Origin: an uncultured Chloroflexus sp.
GTDB lineage: Bacteria > Chloroflexota > Chloroflexia > Chloroflexales > Chloroflexaceae
NCBI RefSeq assembly: GCF_937951745.1
Contig: NZ_CALFBQ010000056.1
Location: forward strand, 1-64,000
DNA: 64,000 nucleotides
Direction of reading: 5' to 3'
Positions within the stretch are counted from its first letter, which is position 1; each line of letters begins with the position of its first letter. The translations under genes were made by a program, and so were the position numbers. This document shows positions 25,121 through 42,224 of the stretch, piece after piece. The notes beneath the pieces were generated by a model, which did no database searches, was not told where the DNA came from, and saw only the letters and a program-made list of their open reading frames with translations.

Positions 25121-25192
25121 GCTTTAGCCAGAAATTTTGCTTACAAGGGCTGAGGCGCACGGTCGTGCGGCTCTACGGTTATTCAACCCATC

Positions 25193-25221
25193 TTGCCATG
25201 GATCCGTATATCGCGTACAAT
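25193..25221 (+). promoter_or_regulatory. Promoter of the gapdh-arsJ operon
   Basis: TTGCCA (25193-25198), 17-base spacer, TACAAT (25216-25221). The predicted start falls inside the palindrome at 25225-25240, which fits repression by a bound regulator. Confidence 0.7.
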
Positions 25222-25224
25222 TGC

Positions 25225-25240
25225 ATCAATATGAATTGAT
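25225..25240. promoter_or_regulatory. Candidate ArsR-type operator
   Basis: ATCAAT-ATGA-ATTGAT is a perfect inverted repeat with 6-bp arms lying just after the -10 box. It matches the ATCAA-N6-TTGAT pattern I know from ArsR-controlled arsenic operons. The regulator is not adjacent; the ArsR encoded at 28562 is one candidate. Confidence 0.6.
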
Positions 25241-25256
25241 AAAACAGGAGGGTTCT

Positions 25257-26264
25257 ATGGCGGTACGGGTGGGGATCAATGGCTTCGGTCGGATTGGACG
25301 GCTGGCATTGCGGGCAGCGTGGGGATGGCCTGAATTAGAGTTTGCCCATATTAACGAGATCGGGGGCGATGCAGCGGTTGCAGCGCATCTCCTCACCTTC
25401 GACTCGGTGCATGGGCGCTGGAGCCACGAGGCGCAGGGTGAGGGCAATCAGCTCCTGATAGATGGGAAGCCGATTGGTTACAGTCAGATCAAAGACCCCG
25501 CTGCTGTGCCGTGGGCTGCGGCGGGGGTCGAGATTGTACTAGAAGCGACGGGGAAGTTTCGCACTCCCGAGCAATTGGCGGCCTATTTCGCTGCTGGCGT
25601 CAAGAAGGTGATTGTGGCGGCGCCAGTGAAGGGTGAGGCACTCAATATTGTGATGGGGGTCAATGATCATTGGTACGACCCAACCCGTCACCATCTGCTA
25701 ACGGCTGCCTCGTGTACAACCAATTGTTTGGCGCCGGTAGTGAAGGTTATTCACGAGGGAATTGGCATTCGCCATGGGATGATCACAACGATTCATAGCT
25801 CAACCAATACGCAGAGCGTGCATGATCAGCCTCACAAAGATTTGCGGCGAGCGCGAGCATCAAGCCTCTCGCTCGTGCCGACGACCACCGGCTCGGCAAC
25901 GGCGATTGGGATGATTTTCCCTGAATTGCAGGGCAAGCTCGATGGGCAAGCGGTGCGAGTACCGTTGCTCAATGCTTCGCTGACCGACTGCGTATTTGAG
26001 GTCGCACGCCCTACGACTGTTGCTGAGGTAAACGAGTTGCTGCGCTCCGCTGCCGAAGGCCCACTCAAGGGTATTCTCGCTTACGAAACCCGCCCACTGG
26101 TCTCGATTGATTTTGTCACCGATCCCCACTCGGCGATTATCGATTCGTTGTGTACCATGGTCACCGATGGCACACAGGTCAAGATTTATGCGTGGTACGA
26201 TAACGAGTGGGGCTACGCCAATCGGTACGTCGAATTAGCGCGAAAGGTAGCGATGGCATTATGA
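25257..26264 (+). CDS. ArsJ-associated glyceraldehyde-3-phosphate dehydrogenase
   Basis: A 335-residue GAPDH with Rossmann [10 protein letters not shown], catalytic Cys153 in ASCTTNC and His180. The loop reads [23 protein letters not shown] and is followed by [10 protein letters not shown]. These differ from glycolytic GAPDH (usually HSYTNDQ and TSTGAAKA) and fit the arsenic-linked subgroup. In the described pathway this enzyme forms 1-arseno-3-phosphoglycerate from glyceraldehyde-3-phosphate and arsenate, and ArsJ exports it. The start at 25257 has AGGAGGG before it; an upstream in-frame start at 25137 lies before the promoter. The stop overlaps arsJ in ATGA. Confidence 0.88.
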
Positions 26265-27565
26265 AACCGGTACAATCGGTAACTCCGGCAGCTACGGCTG
26301 CCGAGCAGCGGCGTGCTGACCGGCGCAACTATCTGTTGGTAACGGCGGCCTATTGGGCCGACACCCTCACCGACGGCGCAATTCGGATGCTGGTGCTATT
26401 TTACTTTGCGCAGCTTGGCTACTCACCATTTGCAGTTGCGTCGCTCTTTCTCTTCTACGAAATCTTCGGCGTGATCACCAATCTGTTCGGTGGCTACCTT
26501 GGTGCGCGGTTTGGCTTGAAGGCGACCCTGTTTCTTGGGCTAGCGACACAACTGATTGCACTGAGTATGCTGGCGTTCGCCCCACCCTCACTGCTGGTCG
26601 TGCCCTACGTGATGGCAGCGCAGGCGCTGTCGGGTATTGCGAAAGACCTGACCAAGATGTCGTCGAAGAGTGCCGTGAAGCTCGTTGCCGGTGAGGGCGA
26701 GGGTCAGCTTTACCGTTGGGTGAGCATCTTAACCGGCTCGAAGAATGCGATTAAGGGGTTAGGCTTCTTTGTCGGTGCGCTGCTGCTCAGCCTGCTCGGT
26801 TTCCAGACCGCCCTGCTGGTGCTGGCCGCACTGGTTCTAGCCGCGCTGATCGGTGCCGTTAGCGCCATTAGCGGCGATCTCGGCGTTGCCGATAGGAAAG
26901 CCAAGTTCAAGCAGATGTTTTCGCCTAACCGAGCAGTCAATCTACTGGCTGCTGCTCGGATTTTCCTATTTGGTGCGCGTGATGTCTGGTTCGTCGTCGG
27001 GTTGCCGGTCTTCTTCATCACAGTGCTCGGCTGGGATTTCTGGCTCGCCGGCGGCTTCATGGCAGCATGGACGATCGGTTACGGCTTTGTGCAAGCGGCT
27101 ACACCGGCTCTCATCCGACGGCGGGTCGCCGGTGCCCGCGCACCTGACGGACGTACCGCGATGTGGTTAGCCTTTGCACTCGCTGCCTTTCCGGTCGGTA
27201 TCGCACTCGCACTTAGCGCCGGTCTTGCCCCCACTCTCGCGGTAGTTGGTGGTCTTCTCGCCTTCGGCATCGTCTTTGCACTGAATTCGGCAGTGCATAG
27301 CTACCTTATTCTGGCCTACGCCGACGATGCCAAGGTGGCGATGAATGTTGGTTTTTATTACATGGCGAACGCATTAGGCCGACTAGCCGGCACCGTCTTA
27401 TCGGGTGTGCTCTACCAATGGGGTATGCAGAGCAGCCTCTATGGCGGCCTAATCGCCTGTCTCTGGGCCTCAGCCGGGTTTGTGTTCTTGGCCGGCCTCC
27501 TCTCAATCCGGCTGCCGACGCCGGTACGAGTCGTTACTGGCGAGTGGAAAGTGGCCGGAGAGTAG
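26261..27565 (+). CDS. arsJ: ArsJ organoarsenical (1-arseno-3-phosphoglycerate) efflux permease
   Basis: A 434-residue major facilitator protein with about twelve hydrophobic segments. Strongly diagnostic stretches are [60 protein letters not shown] and [17 protein letters not shown], all typical of ArsJ. It exports the unstable arseno-phosphoglycerate made by the preceding GAPDH, giving arsenate resistance. The start is the ATG overlapping the GAPDH stop (ATGA). A weak stem (27585-27624) follows and runs into the convergent merR end. Confidence 0.92.
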
Positions 27566-28057: not shown

Positions 28058-28561
28058 TACAAATTATCGGAAAGTCTACCTAAAGCGAGATGATTAAGAA
28101 ATGTGTTCTCTGTTACTTCACAAACTACAGTAAAGAGATAATGATGACCGAGTAGCGTAGATTGAGTTGCTTTCTGCATAAACTGATTGTAAACAGGAGT
28201 GGCACGTTCGTCAAAACTGCCATTGTAGCCTACCTATTGTGCGCCTCTCTCGCCCCTCGCCCTGCTAGGGCGAGAGAGGCTCATTCGTCGTCCCGTGCGT
28301 CCTTGCCGCACCCCAGCCCTTGCGGGGGCTTTCACTTACGGATTGCCGATAATGACATACTGTCATCCAGCCACCGACAACCGTCGTGAACTGAACGACT
28401 ACAGGTGACGGTCACCCTTGAAACCCCCTGCCGAGTATCACCCTCGCGACAACCGTCACAGAAAACACGCCCCACTCTAGCGGTGAACAGTTAAAGTGCT
28501 ACAACCGTTCGGTTGTGATATTTTAACGATGATATTCAAAAAATCGCATACAATAGCAGAC
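28058..28561. other. 504-bp intergenic region with hairpin and repeated ACAACCGT sites
   Basis: No credible gene was found here. It holds a 13-bp inverted repeat GCCTCTCTCGCCC / GGGCGAGAGAGGC (about 28242-28279), a palindrome GGTGAC-G-GTCACC (28404-28416), and three ACAACCGT motifs at 28377, 28449 and 28501. The last is part of ACAACC-GTTC-GGTTGT (28501-28516), 46 bases before the ArsR start. TACAAT at 28549-28554 could be a -10, with no clear -35. Confidence 0.55.
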
Positions 28562-28924
28562 ATGAAGAACACCACTGCCGACAAACAGGCTCGCCTGTTC
28601 AAAGCGCTGATGCATCCGGTGCGCATCCAAATTCTCGAAATATTGCGCAACGGTGAGGCATGCGTCTGCCATATCGAAGCGATCTTGGGTCTACGGCAAG
28701 CGTATGTCTCGCAACAACTGGCTGTCTTACGCAGGGCCGGTTTTATCAGCGACCGGCGTGAGGGGCCGAATATCTATTACCGCATCATCCGCCATGAGGT
28801 GCTAGACCTGCTCGATATGGCTCGCGCCCTAGCCGGTGAATCCGAATCGACGTTACCGTTATCGGCAGGGTGTTCATGTCCGCGTTGTGCAACACCTATT
28901 GTGCTACTGGAACGAGGAGTGTAA
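28562..28924 (+). CDS. ArsR/SmtB-family metalloregulator
   Basis: A 120-residue winged-helix repressor with FKALMHPVRIQILEILRNGEACVCHIE. Cys34 and Cys36 in ACVC match the helix alpha-3 ELCVCDL metal(loid) site of ArsR/CadC proteins. The recognition helix is RQAYVSQQLAVLRRAG. A cysteine-rich tail (CSCPRC, residues 104-109) may add ligands. It is followed after 2 bases by a thioredoxin-like gene and then a permease, a set found together in many prokaryotes. The inducer is probably a soft metal or arsenical. Confidence 0.85.
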   Translation: MKNTTADKQARLFKALMHPVRIQILEILRNGEACVCHIEAILGLRQAYVSQQLAVLRRAGFISDRREGPNIYYRIIRHEVLDLLDMARALAGESESTLPLSAGCSCPRCATPIVLLERGV

Positions 28925-28926
28925 TC

Positions 28927-29160
28927 ATGGTCAATGTCAAAGTATTAGGGCCGGGATGTGCAAACTGCCGCAAACTGGAAGAGCGGGTGCGCAATGTGAT
29001 CCAGAAGCACCAACTGGAGGCGGAGATCGAGAAAGTAACCGATTACGCGCAAATTATGCGCTGGAATGTGATGCGCACGCCGGGATTAGTCGTCAATGAT
29101 GTATTAGTCGCCGCCGGTCGCATCCCCTCGGAAGAGGAGATTGCCGGCTGGTTGAAGTGA
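28927..29160 (+). CDS. Small thioredoxin-family CxxC protein
   Basis: A 77-residue minimal thioredoxin-fold protein with GPGCANC (Cys11 and Cys14) and the cis-proline region RTPGLVVND, resembling the "redox-active disulfide protein 2" group (TM0996/MTH895-like). It lies between the ArsR regulator and the permease, which suggests it reduces, or passes a substrate to, the transporter system. The start ATG follows the arsR stop by 2 bases. Confidence 0.82.
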   Translation: MVNVKVLGPGCANCRKLEERVRNVIQKHQLEAEIEKVTDYAQIMRWNVMRTPGLVVNDVLVAAGRIPSEEEIAGWLK

Positions 29161-29404: not shown

Positions 29405-30460
29405 ATGGAGCAAACACTCACTACCCCCTCACGCCGTTCTTCCACGCAGGCGTGGATCATTGTAATCACTGCTGCCATCGGCTGGCTGATTGCGTATAAC
29501 CTGATCCAGCCGCTGGCCAACTGGTTGACGTACCATGTCATCGGCCTGAGCGAAGGCTCACACTTGGGCGAGGCGGTTGCCTTCTTTCTGTACGATGTGC
29601 CGAAGATCCTTTTACTCTTGAGCGGGATGATCTTTGTTATCAGCACTTTTCGCTCATTCTTCAGCCCCGAGCGTACCCGTGCCTTTCTAGGTGGCAAACG
29701 TGAGGGAGTTGGCAATATCCTCGCTGCCGGATTAGGTGTCCTGACGCCATTCTGCTCGTGCTCAGCAGTACCACTCTTTATCGGATTCGTCGAGGCCGGC
29801 ATCCCGCTTGGTGTGACCTTCTCGTTCCTGATCGCCGCGCCAATGGTGAACGAAGTCGCGCTGGTGATGCTGTTCGGCATGTTTGGTTGGCAGGTAGCGT
29901 TGCTCTACCTCGCGGCTGGGATGAGCGTAGCCATTGTGGCCGGGATCATTATTGGGCGGCTCAAGCTAGAACGCTACGTCGAAGAGTTCGTTTGGCAGAT
30001 CAAAGGCGGCGGCGGTACAGTCGCGCTAGAGAACCCAACGTGGGCCGAGCGGTTTGCCGGTGCGTGGGAGAATACCCGCGAGATTGTGGGCAAAGTGTGG
30101 TTATACGTCGTGATCGGGATCGCGATCGGTGCCGGAATTCACGGCTACGTACCAGAGGATGCGCTCGCCGGCATTCTCGGTCGTGAGGCATGGTGGTCGG
30201 TACCGGCAGGTGTTGCTTTAGGTGTGCCGCTCTACTCGAATGCGGCCGGCGTTATTCCGGTCGTGCAGGCATTGATGGCAAAGGGTGCGGCCCTAGGGAC
30301 GGTACTGGCGTTTATGATGGCGGTGGTAGCGCTCAGCTTGCCTGAAATGATTATTCTACGGCGCGTGCTGAAGCCGCAATTGATTGCCGTGTTTGTCGGC
30401 GTTGTGGCGAGCGGGATCGTATTGGTAGGGTATTTGTTTAATGTGGTGATGGCGAGCTAG
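29405..30460 (+). CDS. ArsP/DUF318-type permease
   Basis: A 351-residue membrane protein with about eight to ten hydrophobic segments and the family motif TPFCSCSAVPLFIGF (Cys117 and Cys119) followed by AAPMVNEVAL; a second half has VPLYSNAAGVIPVV. Members include ArsP, an exporter of trivalent organoarsenicals, but most have unknown substrates. With the ArsR and CxxC thioredoxin genes it forms a conserved trio. The 244-bp gap before it contains no clear gene. A stem-loop terminator follows. Confidence 0.8.
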   Translation: MEQTLTTPSRRSSTQAWIIVITAAIGWLIAYNLIQPLANWLTYHVIGLSEGSHLGEAVAFFLYDVPKILLLLSGMIFVISTFRSFFSPERTRAFLGGKREGVGNILAAGLGVLTPFCSCSAVPLFIGFVEAGIPLGVTFSFLIAAPMVNEVALVMLFGMFGWQVALLYLAAGMSVAIVAGIIIGRLKLERYVEEFVWQIKGGGGTVALENPTWAERFAGAWENTREIVGKVWLYVVIGIAIGAGIHGYVPEDALAGILGREAWWSVPAGVALGVPLYSNAAGVIPVVQALMAKGAALGTVLAFMMAVVALSLPEMIILRRVLKPQLIAVFVGVVASGIVLVGYLFNVVMAS

Positions 30461-30494: not shown

Positions 30495-30717
30495 ATTCTG
30501 CTTGTAACGGAATAATACGTACAGTGCGCTTAACGACTCGCACGCAACGATCTGGCTCCTAGAACTACGCTGAAGGAGGCGAAGAAAGGTGCAATGATGG
30601 GTATTGCCCCGATTCACACAATGAGCAATCAGCTACGGATAGCAATGAGATGCTATACCTCCGACAAGATGTTACAACGATCCCTCAAGCCACTTGTACA
30701 GCAGAGCGAGGCTAGCG

Positions 30718-31473
30718 ATGTTCTATCTCATCCTGACCATACTGTTGTTTGGATTGTCGTTTCTATCAGGAATGATGGGTCTCGGTGTAGCATTTGTCGC
30801 CACACCGGTTCTTGGCCTCTTTGGGCTTGAACTCAAGCACGAAATTATGCCGCTCTCACTGTGGCTCAACGGCATCACTGCCATTGCCAGCGCAGTTACC
30901 CTAGCGCGCAAAGGGATGGTCGATTGGCGCACTGCTCTTCCGTTATTGATCATTACCACCATTGTTGCACCAATCGGGGTATGGCTCTTACAATTTGTCC
31001 CGACAACCACCATCTGGTGGATCTATGTCGGGGTACTAGTGTTCCTCGCCTACCGCATGGCCTTTCCACCGACACAAGACGACAGCCAACCACGCGCTAT
31101 TAGTGATGCGACACGGGTCAAGGCCGGATTCGCAAGCGCTGTCATCGGGGTCTTCGCTGGCTTTTTGGGGGTCGGTCCCGGTTTTCTCATGATGCCGACA
31201 CTGGTGCTGCTGGGTTACACTGCCCGCATCGCTGCGGCAACCAACGCGGTAATTGTCACTCTACCCTCCTTTTCAGCGTTTGCAACCCATTTGCTTGACG
31301 CTCGGTTTGACTGGCTGCTGTTAATCTTGACCTCTATCTCGGCTTTACTCGGAGCGCAAGCTGGCGCTGCATTTATGGCGCGGCGGGTTAAAAGTCTGAC
31401 CTTGACTCGCATCTTTGCTGCGGCACTGATTGCGTTGGCGTTGCAGCGAGCGTGGTTGTTGGTCGTGGGGTAG
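30718..31473 (+). CDS. TauE/SafE-family anion exporter
   Basis: A 251-residue membrane protein with about eight helices and the duplicated TauE/SafE pattern: LSFLSGMMGLGVAFVATPVLGLFGL in the first half and GFASAVIGVFAGFLGVGPGFLMMPTLVLLG in the second. The family exports sulfite, sulfoacetate and related anions. Given the putative sulfur-oxyanion reductase locus 1.2 kb downstream, sulfite or thiosulfate export is attractive but unproven. The start at 30718 is chosen; an in-frame TTG at 30694 is possible. Confidence 0.75.
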   Translation: MFYLILTILLFGLSFLSGMMGLGVAFVATPVLGLFGLELKHEIMPLSLWLNGITAIASAVTLARKGMVDWRTALPLLIITTIVAPIGVWLLQFVPTTTIWWIYVGVLVFLAYRMAFPPTQDDSQPRAISDATRVKAGFASAVIGVFAGFLGVGPGFLMMPTLVLLGYTARIAAATNAVIVTLPSFSAFATHLLDARFDWLLLILTSISALLGAQAGAAFMARRVKSLTLTRIFAAALIALALQRAWLLVVG

Positions 31474-32588: not shown

Positions 32589-32655
32589 TGTCACAAAGAA
32601 TATAGGTAGGGTTCGTGCTAGCCGGCAGAACACGATCACCTTTCCCTTTGTGACA
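32589..32655. promoter_or_regulatory. Paired inverted TGTCACAAAG elements before the sensor operon
   Basis: TGTCACAAAG (32589-32598) and its exact complement CTTTGTGACA (32646-32655) are separated by 47 bases in the divergent interval, about 36 bases before the lipoprotein ATG. The first copy is itself partly palindromic (CTTTTGT..ACAAAG). Either a looping operator or two regulator sites would fit. Confidence 0.45.
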
Positions 32656-32690: not shown

Positions 32691-33614
32691 ATGGCGCAGC
32701 GTCTTAGTCTCATCATTCTCACTATCTTTCTTCTCGGCGCATGCAGCGTCTCAACAACGCCAGCGCCAATGATCCGGCTCAACGATTTGCAGCCATTGCC
32801 AATGCCGACACCGGTGACGTCACCGCCGCTCCGCGTATCGGTGGCGTCGGTCATCTCACCACAAGGTACAGTGCAAAGCTATCAACCCCTACTCGACTAT
32901 CTCAGTGCGAAGCTTGGCCGGCAAGTGGTGCTCGTGCAACGTCGCACCTACAGCGAAACCAATGAACTGATCGGGAGCAACGAGGTCGATGTTGCCTTCG
33001 TTTGCACCAGCGCCTATATCGATGGCCGCGACCGCTATGGGATGAGCTTACTGGTAGCGCCACAAGTTAATGAGGCGACAACATATCACTCTCTCTTGAT
33101 TGTACCAGCAACTAGTCCGGCACAGACGATGGCCGATTTGCGTGGGAAGGTGTTTGCCTTCACTGATCCGACTTCATTTAGCGGACGGGTTTACCCCACC
33201 GTGTTGGTGAATGAGTTAGGTGACGAACCAGAAACATTTTTTCACGATATTTTCTTTACCTACACCCACGATAAAGCGATTGAAGCAGTGGCAAACGGAC
33301 TAGCTGACGGTGCAGCGGTTGATAGTCTTGTGTTCGAGTTTGCGTTAGCGCGTGACCCAGAATTGGCGACGAAAGTGAAGGTCATTCACACCTCGCCGCC
33401 GTTTGGCATTCCGCCGGTTGTGGTCGGGCCGGGTGTACGCCCACAGTTACGTGCCGAATTGCAGAACATTTTTCTCGGCATGGCTGATGATCCATTGCCG
33501 CTGGCGCAGAAGGCGTTGACGGCGCTGGGCGTTGACCGGTTTGTAATGATTGATGATGTGGCTTATGCCAGCGCACGGCTTGTACGGTCACGAGTAAGTC
33601 GGTTGTCGCCATGA
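32691..33614 (+). CDS. PhnD-like periplasmic-binding lipoprotein, probable sensor subunit
   Basis: A 307-residue lipoprotein. The signal ends in lipobox LLGAC with Cys18 as lipidation site. The rest is a PhnD/SBP_bac_12-type domain: LRVSVASVISPQGTVQSYQPLLDYLSAKLG at the start, DVAFVCTSAYI, DLRGKVFAFTDPTSFSGRVYPTVLV and the second-lobe region GLADGAAVDS. No transport genes follow; the stop overlaps a histidine kinase (ATGA). The same fold is the sensory domain of TtrS and acts as the separate AioX/ArxX sensor in arsenite systems, so I infer ligand sensing for the kinase, not uptake. Confidence 0.82.
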   Translation: MAQRLSLIILTIFLLGACSVSTTPAPMIRLNDLQPLPMPTPVTSPPLRVSVASVISPQGTVQSYQPLLDYLSAKLGRQVVLVQRRTYSETNELIGSNEVDVAFVCTSAYIDGRDRYGMSLLVAPQVNEATTYHSLLIVPATSPAQTMADLRGKVFAFTDPTSFSGRVYPTVLVNELGDEPETFFHDIFFTYTHDKAIEAVANGLADGAAVDSLVFEFALARDPELATKVKVIHTSPPFGIPPVVVGPGVRPQLRAELQNIFLGMADDPLPLAQKALTALGVDRFVMIDDVAYASARLVRSRVSRLSP

Positions 33615-35089
33615 ACACAGTGCATGGACAACATTGGCTGCGACGATGGGCTGCGGTCATCTGGCAAGTGATTGGCGCAGTCAACATTCGAGCGAAGATT
33701 CTTGGCATTGTGCTAGGGTTGGTGGTGCTGATAGGAGTAGCAGCAACGATTGAAGTGCGGCTGTTACTCGAACAAACGCTTACCAACCAAGCCTACGAAC
33801 ACTCGGTTGCAGTTGCGCGTGATATGGCAGCCCGCGCGACCGATCTCACCTTAATGCGTGATTACTACGGCTTGTTTCGTCTCTTGCGCGACACGCAAGC
33901 TAATAACCCCGACCTCCGCTATGCCTTCGTGATCGACTCGGAAGGCACGATCATTGCTCATACATTCGGCACCGGCTTCCCCGTAGGCTTGCGCGATGCC
34001 AACACGGTGACAGCGAATGAACATCACCGCAGTGTGCTATTAACCACCGATGAAGGCGATATTTGGGATATTGCCGTGCCGATCTTCGATGGGCGGGCCG
34101 GTATCGCTCGTGTTGGTTTATCGTTAGCAACCCGTGAGCAAACAGTTGCCGCCGTGACCGGTCAGTTGCTCATCACAACCATTATGGCAGCGGCGGTTGG
34201 GATCACGGCTGCCGCCTTGCTAACGTGGATCCTTACCCGTCCAATTTTACAATTAGTGGAGTTGACCAAAGCGGTAGCCAGCGGCGATTTTAGTCGGCGC
34301 GCCCAACGTTGGGCGAACGATGAAATTGGCAAGCTGACCGATGCGTTCAATGCGATGAGTGAAGCGCTAGCACAGGCCGAACGTGAACGCGCCGAACGCG
34401 AGCAGATGCGAGCACAGTATGTGACCCAGATTATTACCGCCCAAGAAGAGGAGCGAAAGCGAATTGCCCGCGAACTCCACGACAGCACAAGCCAAGCCCT
34501 CACTTCTCTCCTGATTGGTTTGCGTTCACTTGCCGACCGCCATCATTCACCTGAACTGCGTCGGCAGGTTGATGATCTGCGTGGGATTGTCGGGCAGGTG
34601 TTACATGACTTGCACGCACTCGCCCGCCAATTGCGACCTAGCGTGCTCGACGATTTAGGGTTAGCTGCTGCCATTCAACGCTACGTTGCCGATTGCCGCG
34701 CTCGGAGCGGATTGACGATTGATTTGGCCATGCCCGACTTGACCGATGAACGGCTTGATCCGGCGCTCGAAACTGCACTCTACCGGATTGTGCAAGAAGC
34801 GCTGACCAACGTCATCCGTCATGCTCACGCGACAACGGCCAGCGTGGTGATTGAGCGGCGGAATGGCCACTTACGTGCCATTATTGAGGATAATGGCTGT
34901 GGCTTTGATCCGGCTAGCCTCAGCGGTGATGGTCATCTCGGCTTGAATGGAATCCGCGAGCGGGCAGCATTGTTGAACGGTCAGTTGATCATTGAGTCAG
35001 CACCCGGTAGTGGTACAACTCTTTATGTCGAATTTCCCCTGCCAGCAACAAATGAGGAGCGTCATGAGCAGCATTCTGTTGGTCGATGA
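33611..35089 (+). CDS. Membrane histidine kinase (HisKA_3 type) of the molybdoenzyme locus
   Basis: A 492-residue kinase with transmembrane segment about 29-48, an outer sensor region about 50-183, a second transmembrane segment 184-206, and HAMP (208-260). The dimerisation/phosphoacceptor domain has His290 in ARELHDSTSQALTS, and the HATPase domain has EALTNVIRHA and DNGCGF. This is the NarX/DegS-type kinase class that pairs with NarL/FixJ-type regulators. It overlaps the lipoprotein gene upstream by 4 bases and the regulator gene downstream by 26 bases, so the three are made together. Confidence 0.87.
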   Translation: MNTVHGQHWLRRWAAVIWQVIGAVNIRAKILGIVLGLVVLIGVAATIEVRLLLEQTLTNQAYEHSVAVARDMAARATDLTLMRDYYGLFRLLRDTQANNPDLRYAFVIDSEGTIIAHTFGTGFPVGLRDANTVTANEHHRSVLLTTDEGDIWDIAVPIFDGRAGIARVGLSLATREQTVAAVTGQLLITTIMAAAVGITAAALLTWILTRPILQLVELTKAVASGDFSRRAQRWANDEIGKLTDAFNAMSEALAQAERERAEREQMRAQYVTQIITAQEEERKRIARELHDSTSQALTSLLIGLRSLADRHHSPELRRQVDDLRGIVGQVLHDLHALARQLRPSVLDDLGLAAAIQRYVADCRARSGLTIDLAMPDLTDERLDPALETALYRIVQEALTNVIRHAHATTASVVIERRNGHLRAIIEDNGCGFDPASLSGDGHLGLNGIRERAALLNGQLIIESAPGSGTTLYVEFPLPATNEERHEQHSVGR

Positions 35090-35705
35090 TCACGCAGTCT
35101 TGCGTGCCGGATTACGCTTGTTGCTCGAATCTCAACCTGATATGGTTGTGGTTGGTGAAGCGGAAGACGCACGCACTGCGATTACGCAGGCAACGACTCT
35201 CCAACCTGACCTTATCCTCCTTGATCTGAGCTTGACCAACAGTAGTGGCCTTGCTGCCATTCAATCGTTGCGAGCGGCTGCGCCACAGGCTCGTATCCTC
35301 GTATTGACAATGCACGACGACGAGGGCTACGTGCGACAAGCACTGGCTGCCGGTGCGCATGGGTATGTTTTAAAGCGTGCTGCTGACGCTGAGTTGATTG
35401 CAGCGATTCGCGCAGTATTACGCGGCGAGCTGTATATCCATCCCGCCCTCACCCGTCGCTTGCTCGAGGATATCTTGCCACAACCACAACCGACTAATCC
35501 ATGGGAAAGCCTGAGCGAGCGCGAGCGAGAGGTATTGGTATTGGTTGCACGTGGCTACACCGCAGCCGAAATTGCCAGCCAGTTGAACCTCAGCCCCAAA
35601 ACGGTCGAAACCTACCGTACCCGCGGTATGGAAAAGCTCGGCCTCCGCTCACGAGCTGCGCTTGTCCAGTTTGCGCTCGACCACAACTTGCTCGCCCCCA
35701 CATAA
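35064..35705 (+). CDS. NarL/FixJ-type response regulator
   Basis: A 213-residue regulator. The receiver domain has the acidic pair in LVDDH, phosphoacceptor Asp54 in LLDLSL and Lys in YVLKRA. The C-terminal LuxR-type helix-turn-helix has LSEREREVLVLVARGYTAAEIASQLNLSPKTVETYRTRGMEKL. The start at 35064 has GAGGAG upstream and lies within the end of the kinase gene. Its probable target is the palindrome at 35866-35890 before the reductase genes. It corresponds in position to TtrR. Confidence 0.88.
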   Translation: MSSILLVDDHAVLRAGLRLLLESQPDMVVVGEAEDARTAITQATTLQPDLILLDLSLTNSSGLAAIQSLRAAAPQARILVLTMHDDEGYVRQALAAGAHGYVLKRAADAELIAAIRAVLRGELYIHPALTRRLLEDILPQPQPTNPWESLSEREREVLVLVARGYTAAEIASQLNLSPKTVETYRTRGMEKLGLRSRAALVQFALDHNLLAPT

Positions 35706-35782
35706 CCTATCTTACAGCCGGTCAATCCATCGGCAACGAACGGATGCGCTGAAAGACTGTTCATTCGTTCCGGTTATGCATA

Positions 35783-35830
35783 CTTACCGCCCGCCCGTGC
35801 AGGTCGTCGGACATGCGAGCGGGCGATAAG
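35783..35830. terminator. Large stem-loop after the regulator gene
   Basis: CTTACCGCCCGC (35783-35794) pairs with GCGGGCGATAAG (35819-35830) at 11 of 12 positions around a 24-base loop. No T-run follows. It could end the sensor operon or shield the reductase promoter from read-through. Confidence 0.5.
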
Positions 35831-35865
35831 CCGCGATTCGTCCATTCATTATCGCGATGTCTCAC

Positions 35866-35890
35866 CGTTGTCGGGAAAATCCTGACAACG
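35866..35890. promoter_or_regulatory. 25-bp near-perfect palindrome, candidate operator of the reductase operon
   Basis: CGTTGTC-G-GGA-AAA-TCC-T-GACAACG. Ten of twelve symmetrical pairs match. It lies about 97 bases upstream of the 4Fe-4S subunit ATG in the only gap between regulator and structural genes. The size and symmetry suit a dimeric LuxR-type regulator. No clear -35/-10 could be fixed nearby. Confidence 0.55.
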
Positions 35891-35986
35891 ACCCTGACAG
35901 TACCACATTTTTCCTGCTACCGCTAGCACAAGAAACGTCATACAGTACGGTTAGCGGTAATCTGCGAGTGACGAGGAGCGTAGCCT

Positions 35987-36943
35987 ATGTCTCGACAACC
36001 CACTATTCCGCTCACCCCGGTCAGTCGGCGTGGCTTGCTTGGCGCGCTGGTGGCTGGCGCTGGTGCGCTGGCAGCAGCTTCGGTGCAAGCAAGCATCCCA
36101 GCCGCAACCGGGAAATCGAACGAATCGATCGACGTTTTAACTCCCGAAGAGGCATTGGCAGCGTATGAGGCCGAAATTGCCCGGTTGCGGGCTGCAAACA
36201 TCAACGGGACACCGGTCGATCTCCTCGAACGGATGCGCACTGATTTGTTGCGCGCCCTCACTAAGCCGGTCAATGAACGACGCTGGGTGATGGTAATTGA
36301 CCTGCGTGCCTGCGTTGGCTGTCACGGCTGCACGATTGCCTGCGTCGCTGAAAACAAACTACCTCCCGGCGTAGTCTATCGCCCCGTGCTGGAAGAAGAG
36401 ATCGGACGGTATCCCAATGTAAGCCGCCGTTTTATCCCTCGACCATGCATGCAGTGTGATAATCCACCCTGCACAAGCGTTTGCCCTGTTTCGGCCACAT
36501 ACACGAACGAGCATGGCGTCGTTGCGGTTGATTATGAGCAGTGCATCGGCTGTCGCGCCTGCATCGCCGCTTGCCCTTACGGTGCTCGAACCTTCGACTT
36601 TGGCTATACCTACACTGCCAATACGACTACCTCCGGCGTAATGTTTGGGGCCGAGCAAGCAGTGAGCTACGAGCAGGTGAGCACGTTTGAGTACGGGAAA
36701 CTGCACGCTCGTCACGACGCACACGATTCGCCAGTGGGCAATGTGCGCAAATGCCACTTCTGTATGCATCGCGTGCTGAATGGTGAATTACCGGCTTGTG
36801 TAACGACGTGTATCGGGCGGGCAACCTTCTTTGGCGACGCGAACGATCCCGAAAGCCTCGTCAGCGAATTGATCGCAAAGCCGAATGTGATGCGGTTGAA
36901 AGAAGAACTTGGTACTGAGCCGCGTGTGTATTATTTGCAGTGA
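35987..36943 (+). CDS. TtrB-like TAT-exported 4Fe-4S electron-transfer subunit
   Basis: A 318-residue protein with a twin-arginine signal (SRRGLLGAL, residues 13-21) and sixteen cysteines in four clusters: 109/112/115/119, 154/157/162/166, 186/189/192/196 and 256/259/271/275. This is the four-[4Fe-4S] arrangement of DmsB/PsrB/TtrB subunits, which carry electrons between the membrane subunit and the molybdenum subunit. A GAGGAG site precedes the ATG. It is the first gene of a B-C-A operon; the next gene starts 11 bases later. Confidence 0.88.
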
Positions 36944-36954
36944 GGAGCAGACCT

Positions 36955-38097
36955 ATGCTAAAACGACTCCTCTATGTGGTTGGCTCCCTTGGCCTGCTCA
37001 TCGGCATGTGGGGATTGTACGATCGGTTTGTCTATGGACATATGAACGCCAACTACGGCTCGTATGTGGTATGGGGGCTGTGGGTGGCACTCTATATGTT
37101 TTTTGCCGGCGTTGCCACCGGCGGCTTTATGCTGGCGACCCTCGATCTGTTGTTTGAATTGCCATTATTCCGTGGCAGTGGCCGGATGGCCCTGTGGGGA
37201 TCATTGGTCACCCTGCCGGCCGGTCTAGCTGCTATCGGTCTCGATCTTGGTCATATGACGCGGATTTGGAAAGTCTACCTCCAGCCCAATTTTGGGGCAG
37301 TAATGGCGCAACTGGTCTGGGGGTATACAATCTTTCTCATCATCATCATCGTCAGCCTCTGGCTCAGCTTCCGCCCCCAACCCTCACGCTGGCTGAAGCC
37401 GATCATGGTCGTTGGTCTCGTGTTAGCAATTTTTCTCAGCGGTGGTATCGGAGCATTGCTTGGTGTCAACCAGAACCGGGTAAGCTGGCATGTCAGCAAC
37501 TTGCCGGCCCAATTTCCTGTCTTTAACCTCACCTCTGGCGTTGCCCTGATGCTGATCGCCATCGGCTGGTTTGGCCCGGTACACGATCCGCGCCGTTCGC
37601 AACAGTTGCATGTATTGGGGTTAGGGCTGGTGGTGCTGCTACTGGTCAAAGGGTACTATCTGTGGACTGATGTCTCGCAGGCGCTTTACCAGAATAGCAG
37701 TCACGGCGCCGAGGCAATCAATCTGGTGCTGTTTGGCCCCTACGGTTGGGCCTTCTGGTTGCTGCAAATCGGTCTTGGTATGCTACTGCCACTGATCGTC
37801 TTAACGACGCCGATACGGAACAACGGCTTTGCTGCCGGGCTGATGGGCGTCTGTGTCTTGCTCGGCTTGGCCGTAGCCCGCGCTAACATTATCTTCCCGG
37901 CTCTCTCCCTCCCCGAACTGCGAGGTCTAGGTGAAGCCTTCCACGGCCCGCACCTGAGCTTTACTTATAGCCCAAGCCTGATGGAATGGGCAGTGACCGC
38001 TGGCATTGTCGGTGCCGCTACCATTGGCTTCGTTATAGGTGCCGATCGCTTACCACTCTTTAGCCGTCCGGTCAAATCTGCCGGTGCAGCCGATTAG
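36955..38097 (+). CDS. TtrC/NrfD-type quinol-linked membrane subunit
   Basis: A 380-residue membrane protein with about nine or ten helices of the NrfD/PsrC family (YVVWGLWVALYMFFAGVATGGFMLATL near the start, LDLGHMTRIWKVYLQPNFGAVMA, then HVSNLPAQFPVFNLTSGVALMLIA). Such subunits exchange electrons with menaquinone and hold no haem. The start at 36955 is set by GAGGAG 7 bases upstream. It anchors the B and A subunits at the outer face of the membrane. Confidence 0.87.
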   Translation: MLKRLLYVVGSLGLLIGMWGLYDRFVYGHMNANYGSYVVWGLWVALYMFFAGVATGGFMLATLDLLFELPLFRGSGRMALWGSLVTLPAGLAAIGLDLGHMTRIWKVYLQPNFGAVMAQLVWGYTIFLIIIIVSLWLSFRPQPSRWLKPIMVVGLVLAIFLSGGIGALLGVNQNRVSWHVSNLPAQFPVFNLTSGVALMLIAIGWFGPVHDPRRSQQLHVLGLGLVVLLLVKGYYLWTDVSQALYQNSSHGAEAINLVLFGPYGWAFWLLQIGLGMLLPLIVLTTPIRNNGFAAGLMGVCVLLGLAVARANIIFPALSLPELRGLGEAFHGPHLSFTYSPSLMEWAVTAGIVGAATIGFVIGADRLPLFSRPVKSAGAAD

Positions 38098-38138
38098 TCA
38101 TAGCGCAAGAACACCTGCGATACGACAGGAGTGTTGAT

Positions 38139-41100
38139 ATGAAACGACAGCACGACACCTCAACGCCTACTGGATCGAGCATGAGCCGGCGCGATTTCCT
38201 CAAGGTTTCGGCGTTACTCGGCGGCAGCGCTGCTTTGGCCGGCTGCGGCCCGCTCGCGAGCCTCTCGCGCGGTGAACCGATCGATCTGCCGCTGGTCGAT
38301 GCCGCTAACTCGATCCAAACCGTTTGTTTGCAGTGCAATACCGGCTGTGGCCTCAAGGTCAAGTTGCTCGATGGTGTGGCCGCTAAACTTGAAGGCAATC
38401 CCTACAGCCCTTGGACAATGGAGCCGCCGTTGCCCTATACAACCCCGATTAGTGCTAGCGGGCCAATTGATGGTGCGCTCTGCCCGAAAGGACAGGCCGG
38501 TATCCAGACCGCCTACGATCCGTACCGCTTGACAAAAGTGCTCAAGCGCAAACCGGGGACACCACGCGGAGCCGGTCAATGGATTACAATTGACTTTGAG
38601 CAGGCGATTACCGAGATCGTCGAAGGCGGCGATCTGTTTGGTGAAGGGCCGGTCGAAGGGTTACGCGCACTGTATGCGCTCAAAGATGCAAAGCTGGCCA
38701 AAGCGATGGCCGCCGCAGTGAACAATATTCTCGCTGCTAAGCCCGAAGAGAAGCCCGCACTAGTCGAGCAGTTCAAGCGTGACTTTGCCGAGCATCTCGA
38801 TGTATTGATCGACCCCGATCATCCTGATTTAGGGCCAAAGAATAACCAATTCGCCTTCATTTGGGGACGCTTGAAGAACGGACGTGGTGACTTAGTGCAG
38901 CGGTTCGTCAAGAGTGGCTTTGGCTCGGTCAATGCCAACGGCCACACGACGGTTTGCCAAGGTTCGCTCTACTTCACTGGTAAGGCTATGAGCGAACAGT
39001 TTGATCCGGCAACCGGTAAATTCACCGGTGGTCAAAAGTTCTACTGGCAAGCCGATTTGGGGAATGCTGAGTTTGTGATCTTTGTCGGCACTAATCACTT
39101 CGAGGCCAATTATGGCCCGACGCCACAATCACCCCGTATCACGCAAGGTGTGATTAACAACCGCATGCGGTACGTCGTCCTCGATCCACGCCTGAGCAAA
39201 CTGGCGAGTAAAGCGTGGAAGTGGTTCCCGATTAAGCCGGGAACCGACGCCGCCTTCGCGATGGGGATGATCCGCTGGATCATTGAGCAACAGCGCTATA
39301 ACGCCACCTTCCTCGCCGCTGCTAACAGAGCTGCCGCTACTGCCATTGGCGAACCGAGCTGGACGAACGCAACGTGGTTGGTCAAGATCAAAGACGGTAC
39401 ACCGGGCAAGTTCCTCCGCGCCAGTGAAATCGGTTTGACAACCGTCGTCGAAACGACCGATGCCGAAGGGAAGAAGACGAAACAGTACGTCACTACCGAT
39501 GGCACCAACTTCGCCTTCGATCCTTTCGTCGCGCTCGTCAACGGTACACCAACCCCGATCGATCCGAACAACCCCGAAGCTGTGCCGGTGATGGGTGATC
39601 TGCTGGTGAATACCGAGATTAACGGAATTCAGGTCAAGAGTGGCTTGCAGATTATCTATGAAGCAGCCAGCGTGCATACGATCGCGGAGTGGGCGGCGAT
39701 CGCCGATGTAACGGAAGAAGATATTATCGTTATCGCACGCGAATTTACCAGTCACGGCACCCGTGCCGTCGCCGACATCCACCGCGGGGCATCGCAACAT
39801 ACCAACGGCTTCTACACCAATTTCGCCTTCTACACCTTGAATGCACTCATTGGCAATTTTGACCATCGTGGTGGTCTGATCAAGCCTACCACCTATGACC
39901 GACTGGGTAGCAAGGCGAAAGGCCCATTCCTGATCGAAAAGATGAACAATGGCGCCAACGTGCCATTCGGCATTGACCTGCTGCGCACCAACACCGCTTA
40001 CGAGAAATCGACGCTGTTTAACGGCTATCCGGCACGGCGACCATGGTTCCCGCTCGCGACCGATGTCTATCAGGAAGATGTGCCCTCGATGGGTGACATG
40101 TACCCATACCAGATTAAGGTCGCAATGTTCTATATGTCGGCGATCAACTATGCACTGCCGGCGGCACAGACGGTGATCGAGATACTGGCCGACCCCAAGA
40201 AGATCCCGCTCATTATCACGAGTGATATTATGGTCGGTGAAACCAGCACCTACGCCGATTACATCTTCCCCGACCTGAGCTTCCTCGAACGCTGGGAATT
40301 CCACGGATCGCATCCGAGCGTCCCGTGGAAAGTAGAAAACATTCGCCAGCCGGCGATGAGCCTGCCTCACTGGCCGACTGTCAAGGTCTTCGGCGAAGAG
40401 ATTCCACTTAGCTTCGAGGCACTCGTGCTCGCTATCGCCGAGCGACTTGACCTGCCCGGCTTCGGGCCTAACGGCTTCGGCGAAGGCATTCCCTTTACCC
40501 GGCCCGAACATCTGTATCTCAAACTGGCGGCAAATATCGCTTTCGGCGAAAAGGAAGATGGTAGCGACGGCGTCCCACCGGCTGATGATGACGAGCTGGA
40601 AATCTTCCGACAAGCCCGCCGCTTCCTACCGCCAAGCGTGTTCGACGAAGCCAAGTGGCGCGCAGCAGTGGGAGACAACGAGCAACTCTGGCGGCAAACC
40701 GTTTACGTCCTTAACCGTGGCGGACGCTATCAAGCTTACGAGAAGGGTTGGAAGGGTCATTTGGCAGGCAATCCATACGCCAAACAGATCAACCTCTACC
40801 AAGAAAAGACGGCCAGTGCCATTAACTCGATGACCGGTAAACATCTGCTTGGATATCCCACCTACATTCCCGCCGGGCTAGCCGCCGACGGTACGCCAAT
40901 TGTTGACGAGGGCTATGATCTGCACCTGATCACCTACAAAGAAGTAATGATGGCCAAGGCGCGCGGCATCGCTGATTACTGGCTACTCGCACTGATGCCG
41001 GAAAATGCGATCTTGATGAACCGCATCGATGCCGAACGGCTCGGTCTGCGCACCGGTGACCGCGTGCGAATCAGCTCGGCCAGCAACCCTGAAGGTGTCT

Positions 41101-41393
41101 GGGATCTGCAGAATGGCACGCGCAAGCCGATGATCGGCAAGGTGAAGGTGATCGAGGGCATCCGCCCCGGTGTGATCGCGTTTCCACTTGGCTGGGGTCA
41201 TTTTGCTAGTGGCGCCAGTGAAATTGTGATTGATGGTGTTACCATTCCGGCAGACCCACGTCGTGCTACCGGTGTGCATGCCAACGCTGCAATGCGGGTC
41301 GATCCGGTGCTAAAGAATGTAACGTTGAGCGATTTGGTCGGTGGGAGTGCGGTGTTCTACGACTCGAAGGTGAAACTCGAAAAGGTAGGCTAA
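38139..41393 (+). CDS. TtrA/SrdA-like molybdopterin oxidoreductase catalytic subunit
   Basis: A 1084-residue Mo-bisPGD enzyme. The TAT signal SRRDFLK (16-22) is followed by LAGC (33-36), which could also be a lipobox. [4Fe-4S] cysteines are 63, 66, 70 and 115. Cys273 in HTTVCQGS is the likely Mo ligand. Stretches such as EIVEGGDLFGEGPVEGLRAL, AFAMGMIRWI and SWTNATWLV agree with what I remember of Salmonella TtrA, placing it with tetrathionate and Bacillus selenate (SrdA) reductases rather than DMSO or nitrate reductases. It is about 60 residues longer than TtrA. Direction and substrate are inferred. AGGAG lies 8 bases upstream, and a strong terminator follows. Confidence 0.83.
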   Translation: MKRQHDTSTPTGSSMSRRDFLKVSALLGGSAALAGCGPLASLSRGEPIDLPLVDAANSIQTVCLQCNTGCGLKVKLLDGVAAKLEGNPYSPWTMEPPLPYTTPISASGPIDGALCPKGQAGIQTAYDPYRLTKVLKRKPGTPRGAGQWITIDFEQAITEIVEGGDLFGEGPVEGLRALYALKDAKLAKAMAAAVNNILAAKPEEKPALVEQFKRDFAEHLDVLIDPDHPDLGPKNNQFAFIWGRLKNGRGDLVQRFVKSGFGSVNANGHTTVCQGSLYFTGKAMSEQFDPATGKFTGGQKFYWQADLGNAEFVIFVGTNHFEANYGPTPQSPRITQGVINNRMRYVVLDPRLSKLASKAWKWFPIKPGTDAAFAMGMIRWIIEQQRYNATFLAAANRAAATAIGEPSWTNATWLVKIKDGTPGKFLRASEIGLTTVVETTDAEGKKTKQYVTTDGTNFAFDPFVALVNGTPTPIDPNNPEAVPVMGDLLVNTEINGIQVKSGLQIIYEAASVHTIAEWAAIADVTEEDIIVIAREFTSHGTRAVADIHRGASQHTNGFYTNFAFYTLNALIGNFDHRGGLIKPTTYDRLGSKAKGPFLIEKMNNGANVPFGIDLLRTNTAYEKSTLFNGYPARRPWFPLATDVYQEDVPSMGDMYPYQIKVAMFYMSAINYALPAAQTVIEILADPKKIPLIITSDIMVGETSTYADYIFPDLSFLERWEFHGSHPSVPWKVENIRQPAMSLPHWPTVKVFGEEIPLSFEALVLAIAERLDLPGFGPNGFGEGIPFTRPEHLYLKLAANIAFGEKEDGSDGVPPADDDELEIFRQARRFLPPSVFDEAKWRAAVGDNEQLWRQTVYVLNRGGRYQAYEKGWKGHLAGNPYAKQINLYQEKTASAINSMTGKHLLGYPTYIPAGLAADGTPIVDEGYDLHLITYKEVMMAKARGIADYWLLALMPENAILMNRIDAERLGLRTGDRVRISSASNPEGVWDLQNGTRKPMIGKVKVIEGIRPGVIAFPLGWGHFASGASEIVIDGVTIPADPRRATGVHANAAMRVDPVLKNVTLSDLVGGSAVFYDSKVKLEKVG

Positions 41394-41416: not shown

Positions 41417-41447
41417 AGAGGGGACATAGCAGTGCTATGCCCCCTCT
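41417..41447 (+). terminator. Terminator of the reductase operon
   Basis: AGAGGGG and CATAG pair with CTATG and CCCCTCT in one long stem with a single internal mismatch, starting 23 bases after the catalytic-subunit stop. TATGTTCT follows. Confidence 0.75.
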
Positions 41448-41591: not shown

Positions 41592-42224
41592 GTGTCGGTT
41601 GATGAGCAGTTTGACACCACTTCATTACAATGGCTTATCGCACCTGAACCGCTCGCCGAATTGCTGCGCCGTTCATCGGCAATGCATCGGCACCTGTGCC
41701 CACGACAAGTACTCGGCGCACGGATGGGCATGTACGCTGGTGAGCTGCTGGGGTTGAAGCTACCGCAAACTAACAAACGGCTGTATGTCTTTGTTGAGAC
41801 CGACGGCTGTTTTGCCGATGGCGTAAGTGTTGCCACCGGCTGCTGGTTAGGACGGCGAACCATGCGGCTGATCGACGAGGGAAAAGTCGCAGCTACGTTT
41901 GTTGATACGCTCACCGGCCAAGCGTGGCGACTGGTGCCAAAACCCAACTCACGAGAGTTAGCTCATCAGTATGCACCCGAAGCTCGCAGCCGCTGGCATG
42001 CCTACTTGATCGCATACCAATTGATGCCGGTAACCGACCTGCTCGTGGCCCAACCGGTCACATTAACGGTTGATTTGAAAGCAATAATCAGCCGTAACGG
42101 CATCCGTACCACATGTGAGCGTTGCGGCGAGGAAATTATTAATGCCCGTGAGGTCATTTACGATGGGCAAGTAGTATGTCGCACCTGTGCGGGGGATAGA
42201 TACTACGTTGTGCGCCACGGGTAA
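41592..42224 (+). CDS. FmdE-like protein with C-terminal zinc finger
   Basis: A 210-residue protein. Residues about 28-175 match the FmdE N-terminal domain (HRHLCPRQVLGARMG, DGCFADGVSVATGCWLG). The C-terminus is a treble-clef zinc site, CERCGEE and CRTCAGD. FmdE-type proteins accompany molybdenum/tungsten formylmethanofuran dehydrogenase and other molybdoenzymes; their exact job is unclear. The GTG start follows GGGAGGAT. It has its own upstream region (TGGTATGAT at 41526-41534) after the reductase terminator, so it is a neighbour rather than an operon member. A link to molybdoenzyme maturation is inference. Confidence 0.78.
   Translation: MSVDEQFDTTSLQWLIAPEPLAELLRRSSAMHRHLCPRQVLGARMGMYAGELLGLKLPQTNKRLYVFVETDGCFADGVSVATGCWLGRRTMRLIDEGKVAATFVDTLTGQAWRLVPKPNSRELAHQYAPEARSRWHAYLIAYQLMPVTDLLVAQPVTLTVDLKAIISRNGIRTTCERCGEEIINAREVIYDGQVVCRTCAGDRYYVVRHG

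Follow-up and report, generated by a model that had tools for sequence, protein, structure and literature searches.

Introduction

Which oxyanion is sensed, and which is turned over, by a bacterial locus that places a lipid-anchored binding protein and a two-component system next to a quinone-linked molybdoenzyme? The question arises from a six-gene locus in a 64,000-nucleotide stretch of DNA (the window; contig NZ_CALFBQ010000056.1, positions 1 to 64,000) that stems from a 4.25 Mb Chloroflexus-type genome (G000). A preliminary description, made from the sequence alone, had compared the locus to tetrathionate and selenate reductases. From gene content, the kinship of the sensor to ArrX and its binding pocket, a locus-linked dyad, and the placement of the enzyme among its relatives, all of them readable in the sequence itself, we arrive at a different answer: an ArrX-type, arsenate-sensing three-component switch probably turns on a quinol-linked, alternative (non-ArrA) respiratory arsenate reductase from a sister clade of TtrA. 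Arsenate is thus the leading candidate for the substrate, and tetrathionate appears unlikely.

Results

A sensor trio and an enzyme unit

According to open reading frame calls and domain searches, all six genes lie on the same strand (32691-41393) and carry the domains that had been assigned to them earlier. The locus consists of two units. The genes for lipoprotein, kinase and regulator overlap end to end (32691-35705), and a gap of 281 bp with a conserved 19-bp dyad separates them from the genes for the iron-sulfur (Fe-S), NrfD and catalytic subunits (35987-41393). The latter encode four-cluster and NrfD subunits besides the catalytic one and are ordered B-C-A, as in ttr operons. Pfam domains on separate genes bear out the earlier view that a detached PhnD-like lipoprotein accompanies a two-component system and a quinone-linked molybdoenzyme with B-C-A gene order. 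Four more Chloroflexus genomes and a relative from another family have an identical gene order; the locus is missing from three further Chloroflexus genomes. The locus is real and conserved, and it is probably co-regulated. In another family (genome G056, L032), a 91% identical locus and its flanks both have 59-60% GC, as against 55% for the locus in Chloroflexus L031, a pattern that fits transfer better than mis-binning, without being proof of it.

The sensor lipoprotein is most similar to ArrX

Among PDB entries, Chrysiogenes arsenatis ArrX matches the lipoprotein best (207 bits), followed by AioX (117), PtxB (82) and PhnD (28). Its predicted model has a predicted local distance difference test score (pLDDT) above 90 for 230 of 307 residues and is nearest to ArrX (Z 33.8, 2.4 Å over 255 residues, 40% identity), with AioX (Z 30.1) and PtxB (28.9) behind. 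All of these binding proteins have a common fold, and ArrX accordingly leads the phosphite/phosphonate proteins by only a modest Z margin.

The binding pocket of AioX comprises Tyr88, Cys106, Tyr131, Ser161, Ser163, His192 and Asp210, residues that are also found in ArrX and ArxX, and PhnD lacks Cys106 (PMC5908839). All seven are kept in the window sensor (Y87, C105, Y132, S162, S164, H193, D211), and the set is intact, save for a Ser/Thr exchange at position 164, in about 50 ArrX-like proteins near enzyme genes elsewhere. TtrS, in a pairwise alignment, lacks most of them, the cysteine among them. A TtrS-type lipoprotein was rejected on this ground, on the score of the sensor against the NCBIfam TtrS model (21 bits, cut-off 750), and on the separation of the genes. 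A search of plasmids for a further AioX reference yielded no clear AioX.

ArrX, ArxX and AioX form one sensor family, in which the pocket residues alone do not tell whether a member binds arsenite or arsenate; for ArrX itself, binding was observed with arsenate (Kd 1 µM) and phosphate (150 µM), and none was seen for arsenite, selenate, tetrathionate or thiosulphate (PMC5908839). It is the overall kinship of the window sensor, nearer to ArrX, that indicates arsenate as its probable ligand. Kinship and pocket together speak for a sensor of the ArrX type that would bind arsenate.

The trio corresponds to the arrXSR module

In the window, the genes for X, S and R are direct neighbors and stand beside an oxyanion molybdoenzyme, the arrangement expected of an arrXSR module. 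Bacillota arrA loci, with ArrA-type proteins that score about 1100-1200 bits against the ArrA model, served as a positive control for the trio. Most of the loci retrieved had the same trio; their sensors share 35-42% identity with that of the window and, with few exceptions, its pocket. We regard the window trio as homologous to the arrXSR module, since loci of the canonical arrA type carry the same trio with related sensors. Canonical arrXSR-arrAB operons (Chrysiogenes, Bacillota) share module and pocket with the window, but their catalytic subunit is about 850 residues long, belongs to a separate clade and has another molybdenum (Mo)-site motif.

The trio also occurs in other company. One copy lies beside a PhsA/ArrA-like molybdoenzyme of 870 residues near ars genes (L244:7187-15829), another beside a Psr-like molybdoenzyme of 726 residues (L243:3758-14110), and the sensor module is therefore common to several enzyme types. 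In Desulfosporosinus metallidurans, Ttr-like B-C-A genes have an ArrX-kinase-regulator trio as neighbor at three separate loci (L185, L186, L205).

A conserved dyad supports a link between trio and enzyme genes

When the intergenic stretch before the B gene was aligned from six loci, a conserved palindrome emerged, TGTCRGGAAAATCCTGACA, at 35869-35887 in the window. The dyad has the form TGTCRGGA-N3-TCCTGACA, sits 99 bp in front of the B gene and occurs once in the window, as compared with 0 occurrences in 100 shuffles at up to three mismatches. Whole-genome scans allowing two mismatches placed it at the locus promoter in every one of the five locus-bearing Chloroflexus genomes, as well as in the relative from another family, and detected none in the three Chloroflexus genomes without the locus. 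It is the single site in its own genome; genome G002 has two extra sites with two mismatches each.

A matrix built from seven loci was then applied to held-out loci. Of those with close sensors, 14 of 20 have the dyad ahead of the B gene, versus 14 of 3446 background windows (0.4%); the 14-bit threshold was chosen after the score list had been seen, which makes the p-value no more than indicative, and it is the size of the difference that matters. The dyad is also present in two D. metallidurans loci with an enzyme that is only 38% identical, and upstream of the enzyme genes at two loci whose trio lies elsewhere in the genome (L090, L096). The preliminary description had made its reading depend on co-regulation of trio and enzyme genes, a link that the conserved operator supports through both the held-out enrichment and the genome scan. 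The regulator, we infer, binds to the dyad.

Between dyad and B gene, a hexamer (Table 1) may serve as promoter element; a sigma-70 promoter scan gave no informative match. A perfect 10-nt inverted repeat, TGTCACAAAG/CTTTGTGACA (window 32589-32598 and 32646-32655), lies between an SBF permease gene and the sensor gene and is a possible second regulatory site.

The catalytic subunit falls into a sister clade of TtrA

The best NCBIfam match of the catalytic subunit is the TtrA model (NF011567), but the score of 488 bits is far below the cut-off of 1750, compared with 2076 for Citrobacter TtrA. The ArrA model (NF041714) gives 116 bits at a cut-off of 1600, a strict value that the Bacillota ArrA-type proteins, with their 1100-1200 bits, do not reach either; no ArrA above this cut-off was found in 20 genomes searched. 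In a tree of 133 sequences, which did not include SrdA (the Bacillus selenate reductase) and the Pyrobaculum enzyme PAE1265, the window enzyme belongs to a clade of 107 with support 1.00, and canonical TtrA and ArrA fall outside. The phylogenetic comparison that had been proposed for the 1084-residue subunit has thus been carried out for TtrA and ArrA, and it sets the enzyme apart from both. Scores and tree together led us to reject identity with either canonical enzyme.

A scan of named genomes yielded 80 loci at 51-70% identity to the catalytic subunit, in Chloroflexota, Deltaproteobacteria, Bacillota, NC10, Omnitrophota, Planctomycetota, Thermus and others, versus 29% for enteric TtrA; no relatives were found in viral contigs. 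The counterpart in genome G004 is 97% identical. The Fe-S cysteines (Cys63, Cys66, Cys70 and Cys115) and the Mo-ligand Cys273 are invariant in 16 relatives. The predicted structure is weak (mean pLDDT 66.7, residues 270-273 below 50) and was not used for the pocket.

Some relatives have surroundings of their own. Four Chloroflexota loci in genomes of 1.4-1.8 Mb (L066, L067, L069, L070) have B-C-A genes of the clade, followed downstream by a gene for a conserved membrane protein, and lack a sensor trio. In L073, L074 and L183, moaA-type genes lie downstream of the catalytic gene, pointing to a linked supply of molybdenum cofactor; L073 and L074 have FmdE as well, a gene that recurs as neighbor of the enzyme genes in many Chloroflexota. 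A conjugative plasmid of Citrobacter arsenatis (L086:6013-10817) has a Ttr-like B-C-A set within an arsDABC cluster. The Mo-site motif of its enzyme, CELSHH, resembles that of several ArrX-linked enzymes, and the enzyme is a candidate alternative arsenate reductase.

Comparison with known systems

The ttrRSBCA operons of Salmonella and Citrobacter resemble the window in B-C-A order and subunit architecture, but they differ in the identity of the enzyme (29%), which lies outside the clade, and in the fused TtrS sensor, which lacks most of the arsenic-pocket residues. The ttr locus of Melioribacter roseus (MROS_1069-1076) has, like the window, a PhnD/ArrX-like sensor, a kinase and a regulator beside B-C-A genes. 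MROS_1076 (genome G612) is a member of the clade, 55% identical to the window enzyme, and is surrounded by ACR3, ArsC, a thioredoxin-like protein, an ArsP-like permease, ArsR, the ArrX-like sensor and the kinase. The trio has been named 'ArrTSR' and stands with arsRPCB; the ttrA transcript was up during growth on arsenate, and the authors proposed an auxiliary role (PMC5492636). M. roseus differs from the window in a regulator of a longer type (449 residues), in a sensor that is only about 33-35% identical, in a promoter at which no dyad was found, and in being a chemoorganotroph.

The alternative arsenate reductase of Pyrobaculum aerophilum, PAE1265, is reported to belong to the Ttr clade and to be induced by arsenate (PMC5492636, PMC7331816). 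A seemingly novel lineage that is sister to TtrA, SrdA and the alternative arsenate reductase has also been noted, with no function or regulator assigned to it in the passages that describe it (PMC10100899). It may be the clade of the window enzyme, with which its placement beside the TtrA group would agree.

Arsenic genes around the locus

The preliminary description had pointed to arsenic genes nearby and called an arsenic substrate a real option. Both statements hold, and the genes are more specific than it said: ArsJ and a dedicated glyceraldehyde-3-phosphate dehydrogenase are adjacent, and both pass curated cut-offs (Table 1). ArsJ together with this dehydrogenase is a known arsenate resistance route. 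A MerR regulator is also among the upstream genes of this context, and a 77% identical relative of the TauE/SafE permease lies beside another ArrX trio (L244). The SBF permease of the window was rejected as ACR3, to which it is only a distant relative (21%). Genes of the ArsP, ArsR or ACR3 type occur near about one third of the trio loci; they are not universal, and this fraction has no proper genome-wide background. The arsenite oxidase AioA was detected above cut-off in four genomes, all with the locus (G000, G002, G004, G006), and in none of the three genomes without it; G005 has the locus and no detected AioA, and a sample of eight genomes is too small to establish an association.

Table 1. 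Features of the locus and its surroundings (positions in the window)
Feature	Position	Strand	Description
Sensor lipoprotein	32691..33614	+	ArrX-type periplasmic-binding sensor, lipobox Cys18; Pfam Phosphonate-bd, PDB match, predicted fold
Sensor histidine kinase	33611..35089	+	sCache_3/HAMP/HisKA_3/HATPase_c (Pfam); no fused PhnD domain
Response regulator	35064..35705	+	NarL/FixJ type, Response_reg and GerE, 213 residues
19-bp dyad	35869..35887	.	TGTCGGGAAAATCCTGACA; proposed regulator-binding operator, 5' of the B-C-A genes
Hexamer	35941..35946	+	TANAGT (TACAGT here), -10-like; 5/6 positions invariant in upstream alignment
Fe-S subunit (B)	35987..36943	+	Four-cluster, TtrB/DsrO/ArrB-like; leader resembling twin-arginine translocation (TAT) type
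NrfD-type subunit (C)	36940..38097	+	Quinone-interacting membrane subunit; Pfam NrfD
Catalytic subunit (A)	38139..41393	+	Molybdopterin subunit, 1084 residues, TAT leader, Mo ligand Cys273; Ttr-sister clade, not TtrA
Inverted repeat	41417..41447	.	Terminator-like stem just 3' of the catalytic gene
FmdE protein	41592..42224	+	FmdE and DksA/TraR zinc finger
ArsJ-associated dehydrogenase	25137..26264	+	Glyceraldehyde-3-phosphate dehydrogenase; NF033735, 559 bits (cut-off 450)
ArsJ	26207..27565	+	Organoarsenical efflux transporter, major facilitator superfamily; NF033734, 554 bits (cut-off 400)
ArsR/SmtB-family regulator	28496..28924	+	NF033788, 90 bits (cut-off 55)
MTH895/ArsE-family protein	28870..29160	+	Thioredoxin-like; TIGR00412, 100 bits (cut-off 62)
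ArsP_1-type permease	29405..30460	+	Pfam ArsP_1, 252 bits
TauE/SafE permease	30694..31473	+	

Discussion

Several observations speak against an arsenate reductase under ArrX control. ArrX also binds phosphate, if weakly. The Mo-site motif of the window enzyme, HTTVCQGSLYF, differs from that of ArrA (HSALC-AEAEK) and is also unlike the CELSHH/CEQSHH of several ars- or trio-linked enzymes. Many clade members have neither a linked trio nor ars genes (Dehalococcoidia-like genomes of 1.4-1.8 Mb, Omnitrophota, NC10, Planctomycetota), and the clade may therefore not be arsenate-specific. Matrix scans found the dyad in only 2 of 32 trio loci with distant sensors, and neither at canonical arr operons nor in M. 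roseus. In the latter, only the induction of the second, Psr-type gene was significant (PMC5492636). The substrate of the enzyme itself is the weakest link in the argument, and it is here that arsenate is proposed rather than observed.

Arsenate could, for instance, be just the inducing cue for an enzyme that acts on another arsenic compound or oxyanion, such as thioarsenate or methylarsenate. The breadth of the clade, its frequent lack of arsenic context and the deviating Mo-site motif would agree with this. We nevertheless consider it improbable, given that the operator and the linkage to the sensor are of the arsenate type and that M. roseus ttrA is up on arsenate (PMC5492636).

An ArxA-like arsenite oxidase, which would feed electrons from arsenite into the photosynthetic chain, would suit a phototrophic host and a sensor family that comprises ArrX, ArxX and AioX. 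However, sequence and fold both bring the sensor closer to arsenate-binding ArrX than to AioX, the genome already has AioA, and menaquinone is too reducing to take electrons from arsenite readily, all of which makes such an oxidase quite unlikely. We give equally little credence to a selenate reductase of the SrdBCA kind: the B-C-A order would match, but the surrounding genes are arsenic and not selenium genes, and ArrX does not bind selenate (PMC5908839). A tetrathionate reductase, which would form thiosulfate under a detached TtrS-like sensor, can draw on the B-C-A order, the top rank of the TtrA model and the nearby TauE/SafE permease, but is hardly credible for an enzyme that lies so far below the TtrA cut-off and outside the TtrA clade, with a sensor that barely matches TtrS, a protein without most of the pocket, and whose relative ArrX does not bind tetrathionate (PMC5908839). 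What stands of the tetrathionate/selenate-reductase-like label is the B-C-A architecture; the framing by these two substrates finds no support in an ArrX-like sensor and a sub-threshold TtrA score.

For the arsenate-responsive arsenate reductase that we favor, we suggest the following model. Extracytoplasmic arsenate would bind to the lipid-anchored ArrX-like protein, which would then signal through the kinase, and the kinase would phosphorylate the NarL-type regulator. The phosphorylated regulator would bind to the 19-bp dyad upstream of the B gene and activate the B-C-A genes. Their TAT-exported A-B pair would dock on NrfD, and electrons from menaquinol would reach arsenate by way of NrfD and the Fe-S subunit, giving arsenite. 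Chloroflexus uses menaquinone, the potential of which favors arsenate reduction over arsenite oxidation. Reduction would be the favored direction because menaquinol would be the donor.

Sensor module and enzyme clade have each been known or noticed before. Their combination in a phototrophic Chloroflexus, together with the operator, was not found in the searchable literature, outside which most subscription journals lie. Surveys of arsenate respiration that are based on arrA would miss the window enzyme, and its likeness to TtrA invites a label as tetrathionate reductase. The dyad offers a handle for defining the regulon and for spotting arsenate-responsive molybdoenzymes by their promoters, and the split, lipid-anchored sensor lends itself to a simple binding assay that bears on the substrate question.

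A wider view, which we put forward tentatively and at slightly less than even confidence, is that the widespread Ttr-sister clade, where it is under ArrX-type control, may be an arsenate (or thioarsenate) reductase of Chloroflexota, with an operator of its own that is shared across phyla. A Chloroflexus with both AioA and the arsenate reductase could then run a complete arsenic redox cycle in one phototroph. In that case, arsenite oxidation by Aio and arsenate reduction could both take place in Chloroflexus mats of arsenic-rich hot springs.

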